A DNA stretch of 64,000 nucleotides. Origin: Bifidobacterium mellis (GTDB taxonomy: Bacteria; Actinomycetota; Actinomycetes; Actinomycetales; Bifidobacteriaceae). How positions within the stretch are numbered: the stretch's first letter is position 1; the number at the start of each line of letters is the position of its first letter. The position numbers and the translations under genes were made by a program. Below the pieces are notes generated by a model. That model was not told where the DNA came from. It made no database searches and saw only the letters and a program-made list of their open reading frames with translations. The DNA lies in contig NZ_KQ033885.1 in NCBI RefSeq assembly GCF_000967265.1, positions 533,552 through 597,551 of the forward strand. Reading direction: 5' to 3'. Of the stretch, positions 49,305-55,383 are shown piece by piece.

Positions 49305-49824
49305 TCAACTGACTGCTGCGGTCATGATCCAGTCGGTCTGTAGATCCTCGCCCAAGGTGAAGATGTGCTCTCCGGTCCGTTTGAAGCCCACGGCTTGGTA
49401 GAAACGTTGAGCGGGTTCATTGTGTTCCCATACGCCCAGCCAGATTTTGCTCAGGCTCTGGTTCCTGGCACGTTTGAAGGCTCGATTGATCAACAGGGTG
49501 CCCAATCCGCGGTGCTTGAAATCCGATAGGACGTATAGCCGCTCGATCTCCATGGATGTGTCGCTGAACTGTTCTGTTTGGGCCTTCCCGGTGTTGATCT
49601 GCATGTAGGCTGCGGGCGTGCCATCCACGCTGGCCAGAAGAAAAAACGGACTCAGGTTCTGACAGTTGTGACTTGACCAGTTCGGGGGAGAAGGAGTGCC
49701 GGAGGTAGTCTTCCATGTTTTCCCGGCTGTTGTCGGCGGCGAAGGTGTCGCGGAAAGTGGTAATGCCCAAGGAACGTATCAGTCCGACATCATCTGATGT
49801 GCATTGCCGTATTGTTGCGGTCAT
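49305..49824 (-). pseudogene. GNAT-family N-acetyltransferase, frameshifted
   Basis: Two minus-strand frames together make one complete GNAT protein of about 170 aa. The first part begins MTATIRQCTSDDVGLIRSLG with AGGAAAGGAAT upstream; the second contains the acetyl-CoA loop FKHRGLGTLLINRAFKRA and LGVWEHNEPAQRFYQAVGF. They are out of frame by one base at a run of six A on the plus strand (T6 on the coding strand, 49641-49646). Removing one T restores ESVFLLASVDGTPAAYM, a typical GNAT strand. This could be a real lesion, a slippage site or an assembly error. Confidence 0.85.
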
Positions 49825-49888
49825 GATGGCGATTCCTTTCCTCATTGATTCTGCTGCTTGGATATATCTGCTTTGAAAGGCACTGTTT

Positions 49889-50206
49889 TCAGTTGACGAC
49901 CTTGAGTCCGACCACGCAGGCGACCAAACCGATGATGAGCAGAATGCGGGCGAGTGAAATAGGCTCCGAGCCCGTAGCCATGGCGTATAGGACAGTCAGG
50001 GCAGCTCCGATGCCGACCCAGACCGCATAGGCCGTGCTGGTAGGGATGTTGCGCATGGCAAAGGCTAGACCCATCATGCTGAGAATCAATCCCACAATAA
50101 AAACGATGTCAGGGACGATTTTGGTAAAGCCTTGAGACTTGCCCAGGGCGGTGGCCCAGACCGATTCACAGATACCAGCGAATATGAGTATGATCCATGA
50201 GGACAT
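49889..50206 (-). CDS. gdx: SMR-family guanidinium exporter (Gdx/SugE subtype)
   Basis: A 105-residue, four-helix small multidrug resistance protein, the standard length. It begins MSSWIILIFAGICESVWATA, with the essential TM1 Glu in AGICESVWA, GFTKIVP after TM1, and TSTAYAVWVGIGAALTV in TM3, the pattern of the SugE/Gdx subtype that exports guanidinium rather than the Qac drug subtype. AAAGGG lies just before the ATG. A guanidine-III riboswitch immediately upstream (50218-50259) strongly supports the substrate. The in-frame start at 50251 would translate the riboswitch itself and is rejected. Confidence 0.92.
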   Translation of the reverse strand: MSSWIILIFAGICESVWATALGKSQGFTKIVPDIVFIVGLILSMMGLAFAMRNIPTSTAYAVWVGIGAALTVLYAMATGSEPISLARILLIIGLVACVVGLKVVN

Positions 50207-50217
50207 GGTTCCCTTTC

Positions 50218-50259
50218 GGCAAGTCTTGTCGCTGTCCGGGTACTTGACCATCGTCCGGG
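50218..50259 (-). promoter_or_regulatory. Guanidine-III (ykkC-III) riboswitch
   Basis: Read on the minus strand, the leader contains CCGGACGA (50258 to 50251), then a stem arm with CAAGU, GUACCCGGACAG, GACAAGAC and the pairing arm ACUUG (50224-50220). Order and conserved bases match the compact guanidine-III pseudoknot: a hairpin (CAAGU/ACUUG) plus pairing of the 5' CCGG with the downstream CCGG. The ribosome-binding site AAAGGG begins 2 nt after it, fitting translational control. Confidence 0.88.
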
Positions 50260-50523
50260 AACCTGAATCAGATTCTGAACATCAGAGTAGCACGAGTTGA
50301 ATCGTAAGATGTTGAGTCAGATATTTTTATGGCGGTTCAAAGGCCGTAAATGATCAATGCCGATTCAATTCGTCAGAGATCCTGCTCATTTGGGATTACA
50401 TTGCTGCTTGTCCACGAGGAATGAGGAACGCTGCAATCTAGATGAGCCGGGTTGTCAAAGTCGTATACAGCACTACACGGCTACTCCGCATATTCTGGTT
50501 TCACTGCTTTACTAACGTCAGTA

Positions 50524-52101
50524 TTAGTTGCCGATTTCCTTTGAAGCTGGAAAATTATGAGTGATAACTTTTTTTGGTCTTGCCTCTTTATCCGCCTCTG
50601 AGCTTATGGATGTTGATAAATATCTAGGGTCATTGAATATAGCAGCTAAATAGATTTTGCATTCCTCCTGATTGCAACAATCGAACTCTCTATCATTTGT
50701 GTCGATTTTGTCTACTAAGCACATGATATCGCGTTGATGTTTTGGTGCATCCTGATTTGTAGCGTTGTTTCGTTGAGAGTTACAATATTCTAGATTTTTT
50801 CGAAGTTCATCAACCGACAACGATAGCAAGGGAACCTGTTTCGTATCGGGGGAAGCGGGATAACATATTTTCGCCCATTCCTCTCTTTTAGCGTGTGTTA
50901 TGACGGTGTGCAGCAAATGCTCGCGATGAGTGTCTATAGATAATTCTGAATCGATGTATGTTGAAGTGACTTCCGTATATAAACGGAAGTGACCGTGCTC
51001 TATATCCTTCTGGTCGTCTTTGATAAACCCGGTTAACAGCAATTTATCAAGAGGGGCCAAGAACCAATCCCAGCAGGGTAGTTGATAGAACACGAAGATT
51101 AATATCGGGATCAGAAGTGTAACCACGAGCATCAGCGTGGTTGTCGGGTTTAATACAAGGGAAAAGGGTAAAAGTGATATAAAGTAAGAAAGTGCGGCTA
51201 TTGAGAAGTGGTATATTAACTTCCCAAATTTGTGACGTTTGTAGCGAGTTTGATTCCTTTTACTTGAGTGGCCATAAGCGCCGATTTGTAACATAAAGCC
51301 ACGATCAATCGAGCTGAGGATCAGTTCAAGCACAACAGCGATGATCAAGGTCGTTACACGGATGACTAAATGATTGCCCATTCTTGCGAATAGCGCTGCT
51401 ATTCCACATGCTATAAATGTTGCAAGAGTGGTCATGAGGGTCAATCCGAAAATAGGGCGAAGAATAGCATCGGTTATCGGATGTTTTGTAAACAACGATC
51501 CTTTAGGTAATGAGTGATATTCTTCTAGATGATCTGATCTCAGCGTTTCGTTTTCTTGCATCACGCGTGTCGAAAACTTGAATTTCACCCCATAGTTAAG
51601 GGCAAAGGTTGCTATGCTAAAGCCGATGATTATCAATGACAAGCTCAAACCGAAATCGTTCTGATTGAACGTGTCAGGCGATATGTAGCCTGTGATAAAG
51701 TCAATAGCGCCCGATAGTAAGTAGACAAAGTGGTAGAATGCGGTTGCGGTGTGGGAAAATTCGGCGGTCTTAGTTTCCAGAAAAGCTGTCACAAGAGTGA
51801 CGGCTATGATTAATGACCACAGTTCCGGCAGCATATTGGCAGTATCTTTAAAGGGATCGTTACGCACAAAATTGTGGAAGATGGTATTGTGCTCGTACCA
51901 ACTCTGCTTTGCTTGATTTTTGAGTAAGCTATACTCCATTATCCTGATAACAGCTCCACAGACGAAAAATAGAGCAGAGTACACAATATTTACTACGAGC
52001 TGCCTTTCCCTTTCAGCTTGCCAGCTTTCTGCTGGATGGAATATTGGAGATATATTCGAATGATCTCTTGCAGTGGACATAATTGAAACCCGCTCTATCA
52101 T
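50524..52101 (-). CDS. Unknown multi-pass membrane protein, AT-rich
   Basis: Not recognised. The 525-residue product has about eight hydrophobic helices, for example LVVNIVYSALFFVCGAVIRI, LWSLIIAVTLVTAFL, LSLSLIIIGFSIATFALNYG, VTTLIIAVVLELILSSI and LMLVVTLLIPILIFVFYQLP, then a hydrophilic C-terminal part of about 170 residues with several Cys (FDCCNQEECK). Base composition is clearly more AT-rich than neighbours and uses rare A/T-ending codons, suggesting recent transfer. The start is either 52101 or 52080. Neither neighbour suggests a function. Confidence 0.8.
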   Translation of the reverse strand: MIERVSIMSTARDHSNISPIFHPAESWQAERERQLVVNIVYSALFFVCGAVIRIMEYSLLKNQAKQSWYEHNTIFHNFVRNDPFKDTANMLPELWSLIIAVTLVTAFLETKTAEFSHTATAFYHFVYLLSGAIDFITGYISPDTFNQNDFGLSLSLIIIGFSIATFALNYGVKFKFSTRVMQENETLRSDHLEEYHSLPKGSLFTKHPITDAILRPIFGLTLMTTLATFIACGIAALFARMGNHLVIRVTTLIIAVVLELILSSIDRGFMLQIGAYGHSSKRNQTRYKRHKFGKLIYHFSIAALSYFISLLPFSLVLNPTTTLMLVVTLLIPILIFVFYQLPCWDWFLAPLDKLLLTGFIKDDQKDIEHGHFRLYTEVTSTYIDSELSIDTHREHLLHTVITHAKREEWAKICYPASPDTKQVPLLSLSVDELRKNLEYCNSQRNNATNQDAPKHQRDIMCLVDKIDTNDREFDCCNQEECKIYLAAIFNDPRYLSTSISSEADKEARPKKVITHNFPASKEIGN

Positions 52102-52453: not shown

Positions 52454-53888
52454 ATGACTTGGGCCTTACGTAATTTGAAAGCCAATAGTGGCATCTGGGC
52501 TGGCGTCTTTATCGTTCTTGTGGTCACCCAAACCCTGCTTTGTGCCATGAGTGTGGGCATGGGCGTCAACAGCTGTTACCGAGGTCTATCGGTCAAGACC
52601 AGGGATCCTGCCAAGAGTCTGGCTTCGGCCCTGAGCCTAGTCTTCCTCACAGTCATTGTGCTCGGATGGCTGGTGATCAAGCAGATCTTGTAGGTATCAA
52701 TTCGCCAACGTCGACAGGTGCTGGCCCTTCTTTCGGTGCTGGGAGCTACGCCTAAGCAGATCCTGGTGCTTGCGCTTTTGCAGGTGATGATTCTGGACCT
52801 GCTGGCTTCTCTTGTTGCCGCGGCTCTGTCGCCTGCGCTGGCTGGAAGGATCCTCGACTGGTATTCAACCGGGATGCCGATGCCGGTGCATTTCACTTTT
52901 ACCTGGCACGGTTTTCCCAGGTCTGCCCTGACCGGTCTCGCAGTGGGATTGGCCACGGCCGTCTTGGCGACCAGCCGGACATTGCTGGATTTGGGGAAGA
53001 TGACACCCGTCCGGGTGGTGCGCCGTGTTGAGGAGAGCGAATCTGTCGATCGGCCCCGACATGGACGTGGTTTCGTGTCCCTTTTTCTTGGGCTGGCCTT
53101 ACTTGCTGCTATTGCCGTTGCCTGTCGTTGCCTATCTTTCGCATAGCGGCTCTGGATCCTTGGACCCTAAGCAGATTCAGGCGGTCGTAAGTGCCGTTGG
53201 AAGTGGACCGCTGTTCGCTATTCTTCTGCTGCTGATTGCCTTGGCTCGCGCTTGGGGGCCGGTTATAGGCAGGGTCACTCAACTCTGGACTACTCCAGTG
53301 CCGTCGTCATCTGCTATCTGGTGGATTGCGCGTTCACAGGCTGTGGTCAGGAGTAGAGACACCACATTCGGCTCTATAGTCATAGCGTTGACCGCTTGCA
53401 TGTTTCTGGTCGGTGGTCTGCTGATTGCGGGAAGCACCAGTACCGTTGCCATGAACAAGGTGCCGGGAATAGCAAATGTCACATCGAACAGAACCCTGGA
53501 GTCGTTCTATGGTTTCTGGGCAGCGCTGCTGGTCGCCCTGGTTGGCGTGATTACGGGGTTCGCCATTGTCGCTCGGGATCGTGACCTTGATCTGGCGCTC
53601 CTGTCAATCGCCGGTGCAAATCCGCAGCAGTTGACCGGCATATCCGTATTGGACGGCACCATCGTGATGACCACCGGCATTATCATTACAGCAGGCGGCA
53701 CCGGACTGGTCGGACTGTGCACAGCTATGGTCTACTGGCCCCTCGTCCGCAGTCTGTCTATAGTTTTTCCTTGTCAGTTCTTCCTTATATGCGGTTTGCC
53801 GATCATCGCCGTTGGTTCGCTGGCGACCATGCTGACGGCGCGTCCTGCTTTGAGGCGCTCGCCCATAGCCTTTCTGCAAGCACCATAG
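52454..53888 (+). pseudogene. FtsX-like ABC transporter permease, decayed
   Basis: One permease of about 475 residues split by two lesions. The first piece (start ATG 52454, AGGTGA upstream) ends at an in-frame TAG at 52691-52693; translation continues in the same frame with VSIRQRRQVLALLSVLGATP, a typical FtsX core. A frameshift between about 53090 and 53145 moves the rest to another frame, which ends at 53888 with RDLDLALLSIAGANPQQL, the second FtsX half. No ABC ATPase gene is adjacent. Probably non-functional. Confidence 0.85.
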
Positions 53889-54218: not shown

Positions 54219-54497
54219 TCACAGTGTTTGGTCGTGGCTGCCGGTGGTCATCAAAGTAAGAATCATTCGATTTTTGTCGCGCTTATACACCAGGAGCCAG
54301 TCTGCGTCGACATGTAGCTCCTCGTATGTAGACCAGCGGCCTTTCAGCTGGTGGTTTCGATATTTGCGCTTAAGCAGTGCTGAATTGTAGTCAGCCAAGT
54401 CGTCGAGCACCTGATAGAGCTTGCTTAGATCAAAATGTTTCTTCTTGATTTTCTTGACATCACGCAAATACTTCTGCGTATATGCAAACTCATACAT
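54219..54497 (-). CDS. YafQ-type RelE-superfamily toxin
   Basis: Ribosome-dependent mRNA interferase candidate, 92 aa. The RelE/YafQ fold is suggested by YTQKYLRDVKKIKKKHFD, LKRKYRNHQLKGRWSTYEELH, VDADWLLVYKRD and the C-terminal TTGSHDQ. His residues in NHQLKG, ELHVDADW and GSHDQ occupy the YafQ catalytic positions. The start overlaps the antitoxin end by 8 nt, the usual antitoxin-first arrangement. Confidence 0.9.
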   Translation of the reverse strand: MYEFAYTQKYLRDVKKIKKKHFDLSKLYQVLDDLADYNSALLKRKYRNHQLKGRWSTYEELHVDADWLLVYKRDKNRMILTLMTTGSHDQTL

Positions 54498-54744
54498 GAT
54501 GGATGATGTCTTTCATATTCTCTACATCTCCCGCATGGGTGACTGGTGAGGCCTCAGCTTCCTCCATTTCCCTATCAAATTTGGAAAGTTGGGAGCGGAA
54601 TGGAAGTCCTCCTTCGCGTAGAGACTGAGAGAGAAACATGTTAATCGCCGTGCCGAGATCAAGGCCTAGGTCTTCGAAAAGCTGTGAGGCTCGACACTTC
54701 ATATCCTCGCTGGTGCGAATTTGAATTCTCGCTGTCTCTTTCAT
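54490..54744 (-). CDS. RelB/DinJ-family antitoxin
   Basis: Ribbon-helix-helix antitoxin of 84 aa. RIQIRTSEDMKCRASQLFED followed by LGLDLGTAINMFLSQSL is the DinJ/RelB DNA-binding fold; the C-terminal part (EEAEASPVTHAGDVENMKD) should wrap the toxin. The start is the ATG at 54744; the in-frame GTG at 54753 abuts the GGAGGG ribosome-binding site. Pairs with the YafQ-type toxin and probably autorepresses via the operator upstream. Confidence 0.9.
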   Translation of the reverse strand: MKETARIQIRTSEDMKCRASQLFEDLGLDLGTAINMFLSQSLREGGLPFRSQLSKFDREMEEAEASPVTHAGDVENMKDIIHHV

Positions 54745-54790
54745 AACTTTCACCCCTCCGATTGCTCAATTAGTCATCTTTAGCTCCCAA

Positions 54791-54980: not shown

Positions 54981-54987
54981 TGTCTTG

Positions 54988-55383
54988 TGGAGCTGCGGGG
55001 AATTGAACCCCGGTCCGGTGACCGCACCCTCAGTCTTCTACGTGCGTAGTCTGCAGGCCTTTGTGGCTATCTGTCTGCCCCCACCTATGTCGCAGACAAC
55101 CGGTGGCGGGCATAGCCGCAGTAAAAGTCCCCGAACCGCCCTGTGGCGCAGCAGTTCAGGCAAGTCTTCTTAATGACGCTCAGCATCCCCCCGAAGGCGA
55201 AGGGGAGTGAACGGAGCAGCTGCTCACTGGTTAATCCTGGCGCGAAGCTCAGGCAGCGAGAGCGAACTCAGTGCGGTTAGATTTAGCACTTGTTGTTTGC
55301 GGGAGGACATTAACGAGCGGACCCCCGCATTCTCGGCACGCTTCCCTGCGACGAACAGGTCACCGTCGAAACCGATCAGCCCC
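54988..55383 (-). ncRNA. ssrA: Transfer-messenger RNA (tmRNA)
   Basis: Rescues stalled ribosomes by trans-translation. The 5' end GGGGCTGATCGGTTTCGACG and the 3' T-arm GGTTCAATTCCCCGCAGCTCC form the tRNA-Ala-like acceptor (GGGGCUG/CAGCUCC with one G-U pair). The tag frame at 55287-55249 encodes AKSNRTEFALAA and a stop. CCA does not appear to be encoded in full. About 396 nt. Confidence 0.97.

Follow-up and report, generated by a model that had tools for sequence, protein, structure and literature searches.

A guanidine-III riboswitch ahead of a Gdx-type SMR transporter gene in Bifidobacterium mellis

The stretch of DNA analysed here (hereafter the window; 64,000 nt of Bifidobacterium mellis, GCF_000967265.1, NZ_KQ033885.1 533,552-597,551, with coordinates below given as window positions) carries a guanidine-III leader, an SMR transporter gene and a GNAT acetyltransferase gene, all on the minus strand. 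The gene order is murC, ftsQ, dtd, GNAT, gdx, riboswitch, a 525-aa ORF, FtsX-type permease pieces, a YafQ/RelB-type pair and tmRNA, the names murC, ftsQ and dtd coming from a reading of the ORFs rather than from a family search. The unit sits between dtd and the tmRNA, about 6 kb apart in the window, and this order is kept wholly or partly in ten close relatives (L149, L150, L155-L158, L162-L165). At ten loci of the genus that lack the unit, a tmRNA near dtd was visible within the 1.5-kb flanks in three, at about 0.2 kb in L174 and L175 (genomes G151 and G138) and about 1.1 kb in L173 (G126). In the 16-18 kb fetched from G141, G142, G148 and G149, gdx was the only one of the tested window genes to be found, joined by the GNAT gene in three of the four. 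The interval between dtd and the tmRNA thus varies; the unit is not strain-specific, having been conserved in the lineage. A first-pass annotation of this DNA had spoken of an accessory region, a description that suits the variable interval but not a unit kept at the same place in close relatives.

The other genes of the interval have features of their own. The 525-aa ORF (50524-52101, minus strand) matched no Pfam or NCBIfam family; its counterparts in G144, G145 and G129 share 50-58% identity with it, while its neighbours mostly reach 84-96%, and no counterpart was found in the remaining relatives compared. The FtsX-type permease (52454-53888, plus strand) lies in several ORF pieces, as do the matches in relatives. 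The YafQ/RelB-type toxin-antitoxin pair (54219-54753, minus strand) stands beside the tmRNA (54985-55383) and occurs in several relatives as well.

A cmscan of the whole window placed Rfam family RF01763 (Guanidine-III) at 50278-50215 on the minus strand with 51.7 bits (E 8.2e-8), covering model positions 1-67 of 67 and thus the full length. An Rfam search had been set beforehand as the check on the first-pass assignment of the leader to this class, and the score, against a gathering score of 36 bits, bears the assignment out. In the genome-wide search, the same locus was the only RF01763 match at E <=0.001 (E 6.4e-10). By direct reading, the aptamer core CCGGACGA...CUUGCC occupies 50258-50218 (41 nt), and the leader motifs stand in the order first described. 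The earlier 42-nt element ending at 50259 was correctly located and one extra C too long. Its proposed gap of 2 nt to the ribosome-binding site hinges on how the Shine-Dalgarno (SD) sequence is drawn; the SD-like GAAAGG (50217-50212) directly abuts the core and, with its spacer, fills 50207-50217, within which GGGAACC has a predicted pairing partner discussed below.

The ATG of gdx follows at 50206-50204, opening a 105-aa frame that runs, stop included, to 49889. An alternative in-frame start within the aptamer would give a protein of 120 aa, ahead of which direct reading revealed no SD-like sequence; this start cannot be in frame in relatives whose leader has 53 nt rather than 52 nt. A consensus scan of the minus strand found neither a promoter nor a terminator. 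We are highly confident that the locus is a guanidine-III riboswitch controlling a Gdx-type exporter, and the leader would be expected, from its riboswitch family, to bind guanidinium.

In the published guanidine-III structure, an H-type pseudoknot holds guanidinium by C6, G7 and G17, as described in PMC5696562; mapped onto that description of 5NWQ, these contacts are present at 50253, 50252 and 50243. The two helices of the pseudoknot, P1 (50258-50255 with 50239-50236) and P2 (50249-50242 with 50224-50218, one base bulged), are both able to form in the window. P1 was paired in 47/47 leaders, hand-picked for spread out of 100 distinct leaders, and five of them carried a two-sided change from G-C to U-A, a level reached by 0/500 shuffles. 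P2 is almost invariant in the genus and therefore showed no two-sided changes there, and no clear rule related the third-strand letter to its P2 pair. Immediately upstream, adjoining the pseudoknot, lies a 7-pair hairpin (P0; GAATCTG-ATT-CAGGTTC, 50259-50275, minus strand) that folds alone at -5.0 kcal/mol and for which the RF01763 consensus draws a hairpin at the same place. A P0 stem of at least five pairs was found in 66/100 leaders, compared to 8/100 shuffled ones. Within the genus, two P0 pairs had two-sided changes, as many as in 120/500 shuffles.

The strand GGUUCCC (50257-50263, minus strand), made up of the P0 3' arm and the opening two bases of P1, can pair along its whole length with GGGAACC (50213-50207) just before the start codon, and the resulting helix is part of the minimum-energy fold of the window leader. 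In the energy model, GGGAACC was 0.00-0.02 unpaired without the aptamer fold; with the aptamer held, GAAAGG was 0.93-1.00 unpaired and P0 could form. The AAA of the SD-like sequence is still unpaired in the blocked fold, and the AUG falls in a small hairpin (0.06-0.15 unpaired) in the aptamer-held fold. Together, the upstream hairpin and the possible SD-blocking helix suggest, on modelled folds, a translational ON switch by alternate pairing, whose ON direction would follow published work on the guanidine-III class. With the ligand absent, GGUUCCC could pair with GGGAACC just 5' of the start codon. A build-up of guanidinium in the cell would lock the P1/P2 pseudoknot, which should hold the 5' CCGG strand, favour P0 and leave GAAAGG free for the ribosome; translation of the Gdx-type guanidinium/proton antiporter would then be turned on.

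The evidence on this helix is divided. All seven pairs are kept in 8/14 genus rows and the CCC/GGG part in 9/14; no two-sided change was seen in the genus rows, where 14.3% of cells were unpaired. Across 100 leaders, own pairing was better than swapped pairing (1/2000 permutations as good), and the own upstream strand reached -8.88 kcal/mol versus -7.28 when shuffled, a gain that a control strand did not show. With one leader per genus, the advantage over swapping was not significant (146 to 506 of 2000 permutations in five draws of 38 leaders), and a helix equally strong arose in 147/5000 shuffles. SD accessibility was independent of the upstream part: it was lower in the native leader in 45/97 cases (100 minus three with long spacing; Wilcoxon p 0.51), and in the window itself it was 0.60, against 0.59 with the upstream part shuffled. 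Whole-leader stability was no greater than that of shuffles (z -0.43). Class-wide SD blocking was tried by swapped pairing, accessibility and pair counts and was set aside; only the redundant 100-leader set favoured it, and the helix is therefore kept as a model for the window locus. For that locus, we put the chance of this particular SD-blocking helix slightly below even.

The strongest alternative is a guanidine-III switch that works without an anti-SD helix: ligand folding would act through some other structure or shield the mRNA from RNase E, and the match between GGUUCCC and GGGAACC would be due to chance. It disputes the mechanism of expression and leaves the identity of the riboswitch as it stands. 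A review (PMC12186494), as far as it covers the class, lists mRNA protection from RNase E beside SD release among guanidine-III modes, and the helix lacks covariation and did not stand up when tested with one leader per genus or across the class; against this, the helix is the minimum-energy fold in the window and its pairs are intact in most genus rows, as counted above. We regard the alternative as a serious contender, if a somewhat doubtful one, and retain the alternate-pairing model for the window.

We also assessed how common the pairing of leader and SMR gene is. RF01763 was found in 39 of the family's 189 genomes, with 33 of them scoring above the cut-off, and in 124 of 296 genomes sampled from the class, of which 118 scored above it. 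By pattern, a leader lay ahead of the SMR start in 103 of 110 SMR loci, comprising 30 returned from the family search and 80 kept of 575 contig matches, with slight overlap; the seven without it were L060, L064, L084, L102, L112, L115 and L133, and the 103 leaders reduced to 100 distinct ones. Conversely, an SMR gene was at most 800 nt away in 24/30 riboswitch loci returned from the class. The closest named relative of the SMR protein among the matches listed is from Bifidobacterium asteroides (96% identity). In Actinobacteria, ykkC-III is reported close to arr genes and SMR genes (PMC8492726). The pairing of leader and SMR gene is common, and the locus is thus one more case of an established unit.

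Within the genus, RF01763 was present at E <=0.001 in 18/27 genomes, counting that of the window, and the SMR gene of the unit in 17/27. Five of the 17 SMR matches were in pieces or partial (G133, G147, G136, G137, G150); in G136, G137 and G150 the leader scored just 28.6-29.1 bits and the usual ATG reads ATC. Taken with the GNAT gene split in both the window and G133, such losses could mean that the unit is decaying in the lineage, the GNAT being broken already and the SMR gene perhaps next. We consider this improbable: the aptamer in the window's genome fits the consensus and its SMR frame is whole, and in 12 of the 17 genomes the SMR match is near full length and free of stops.

Variant leaders were encountered in several relatives. 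A second, variant guanidine-III leader occurs in 7/27 genus genomes (G132, G134, G135, G136, G143, G144, G150; for instance L152:4637-4697, L151:4494-4555 and L141:4769-4829), with scores from 44.6 down to 28.9 bits; searches of the window's genome turned up no such second leader. Alignment by cmscan at these three loci showed that two core As of GACAAGAC are absent. The gene behind the variant leader encodes a protein that combines a CBU_0592-type membrane region with an ACT_7 domain; in several genomes this protein is in pieces or contains stops. The variant may be a decaying copy or respond to a different ligand. In five Bifidobacteriaceae leaders (L049, L053, L055, L057, L058), P1 is CCUG...CAGG in place of CCGG...CCGG, and GCAAAGAC replaces GACAAGAC. 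In 4/30 class riboswitch loci (L222, L224, L225, L231), the leader stands before a non-SMR protein of 378-389 aa with a similar start in each.

The transporter gene itself (49889-50206, minus strand) encodes an SMR protein (PF00893, 78.5 bits), and its subtype, given as Gdx/SugE at first pass, is upheld: at about 105 aa, the sequence sides with Gdx rather than with Qac/EmrE. SugE was the best NCBIfam SMR model at 82 bits, below the curated cut-off of 126 for the SugE equivalog NF008512. By sequence the protein is Gdx-like, with guanidinium as its probable substrate. A Qac-type multidrug exporter with an incidental riboswitch link is very improbable, for although PF00893 bears the name Multi_Drug_Res and Gdx proteins can additionally transport substituted guanidinyl cations that are hydrophobic (as described in PMC7695847), the nearest solved structures are Gdx (6wk5, 76.5 bits; 8vxu, 74.6 bits), against at most 34.4 bits for EmrE, and SMR models other than SugE reach at most 58.5 bits.

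Directly downstream of the Gdx-type gene, a GNAT gene split over two frames occupies 49305-49845 on the minus strand (ORFs 49845-49417 and 49628-49305; identified from ORFs, families and tblastn), and it would be a second gene, broken in this case, on the gdx transcript. The cut-off of 250 for the spermidine/spermine acetyltransferase PaiA (NF053587) exceeds the scores of the window pieces (121 and 48.8 bits) and of the copies in L004 (193.5) and L002 (153.3), and the gene is therefore named PaiA-like only. It is open at the same place in several relatives. A match at E 1e-15 was found in 11/27 genus genomes and lay behind gdx in 11/11; tblastn found it split in G133 as well, and in G135 a single TGA was flagged inside the match. 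Six genomes have the SMR gene and no such GNAT (G129, G136, G137, G142, G150 and G144, the last with a remnant).

Elsewhere in the family, a guanidine-III leader stands directly before the GNAT gene in G117 (54.1 bits) and G070 (57.8 bits), the latter of which has another such leader in front of its SMR gene. The fetched 1.5-kb flanks of 19/30 GNAT loci contained no guanidine-III pattern; most GNATs of the family therefore do not seem to be controlled by this switch, and a general GNAT-guanidine link was rejected. At E 1e-20, only 3/296 class genomes had a match, that of the window included, and the GNAT could not be followed beyond the family. We built a tree of the 30 GNATs whose loci were returned, out of 50 matching genomes, with nine of the 11 genus copies and with the split copies of G000 and G133 omitted. 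The nine gdx-operon rows formed one group (93/93), and both leader-borne rows were placed outside it, in a tree with open forks and long branches. A single riboswitch-linked GNAT lineage was rejected on this arrangement, and the sequences point to more than one origin of the link as likely.

A canavanine-type role for the GNAT is possible by analogy, because a solved relative, LcGNAT, acetylates canavanine and is linked to a guanidine riboswitch, as given in PMC10416765 and PMC9788692; guanidine has also been proposed as a cue for canavanine, as presented in PMC10018355. Against this role, the polyamine-type enzyme 1tiq scores slightly higher than LcGNAT (8osp), and no CtdA-like protein was found in the genus genomes searched. 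A canavanine defence set was accordingly discarded, the 27 genus genomes containing no standalone B3/4 (CtdA-like) protein. The single B3/4 match in each of them lies in an open frame 868-921 aa long, the length expected for PheRS beta. A further proposal, that the Bifidobacteriaceae guanidine-III regulon combines gdx with a PaiA/LcGNAT-like acetyltransferase against a plant-diet guanidino compound such as canavanine, with guanidinium as the cue and a link arisen in more than one way (gdx operon, own leader), is offered tentatively, and we think it rather unlikely.

In sum, the locus is an ordinary, well-supported instance of a unit already known, and by itself it lengthens a long list of guanidine-sensing export units by one. 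The hosts of the Bifidobacterium asteroides group are bees. Bifidobacteria of plant-fed hosts are a natural setting for asking where guanidine comes from, and the source of guanidine is named as a major gap in a 2025 review (PMC12186494), as far as its account extends. The GNAT association is worth attention and would matter if true, extending to class III the tie between riboswitch and guanidino acetylation published for class IV, as set out in PMC9788692 and PMC10416765. The literature searched, mainly non-subscription, yielded no description of guanidine-III in Bifidobacterium, with GNAT or with CBU_0592.

Among known systems, LcGNAT of Lactobacillus curiae (8osp) matched the relatives' GNATs with 155.4 (L004) and 137.8 bits (L006), and Bacillus PaiA (1tiq) with 158.9 and 142.1 bits, respectively. 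In the alignment with L004, Glu92, Tyr97 and Tyr142 of LcGNAT (our own numbering) coincide with identical residues. Unlike the L004 and L006 copies used in these comparisons, the window copy is split. LcGNAT goes with guanidine-IV instead of guanidine-III, according to PMC9788692 as far as it describes the pair. The window's transporter is of the same length class as Gdx-Clo (6wk5) and aligns with it over residues 3-103, the sequences differing along the protein. E13, W16, Y59 and W62 of Gdx-Clo are the same letters in the window protein. E13 is a residue named for Gdx in PMC7695847, as far as described there. Relative to the guanidine-III riboswitch of Thermobifida fusca (5NWQ), the window leader has a P2 that contains A-U pairs and a bulge, and an upstream hairpin overlapping the possible anti-SD strand; the SD-like sequence directly follows the core here, whereas it is 16 nt away in T. 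fusca, as given in PMC5696562. The pseudoknot core and the three ligand-contacting letters are the same in both, and here, too, the ribosome-binding site of an SMR gene comes shortly after the riboswitch.
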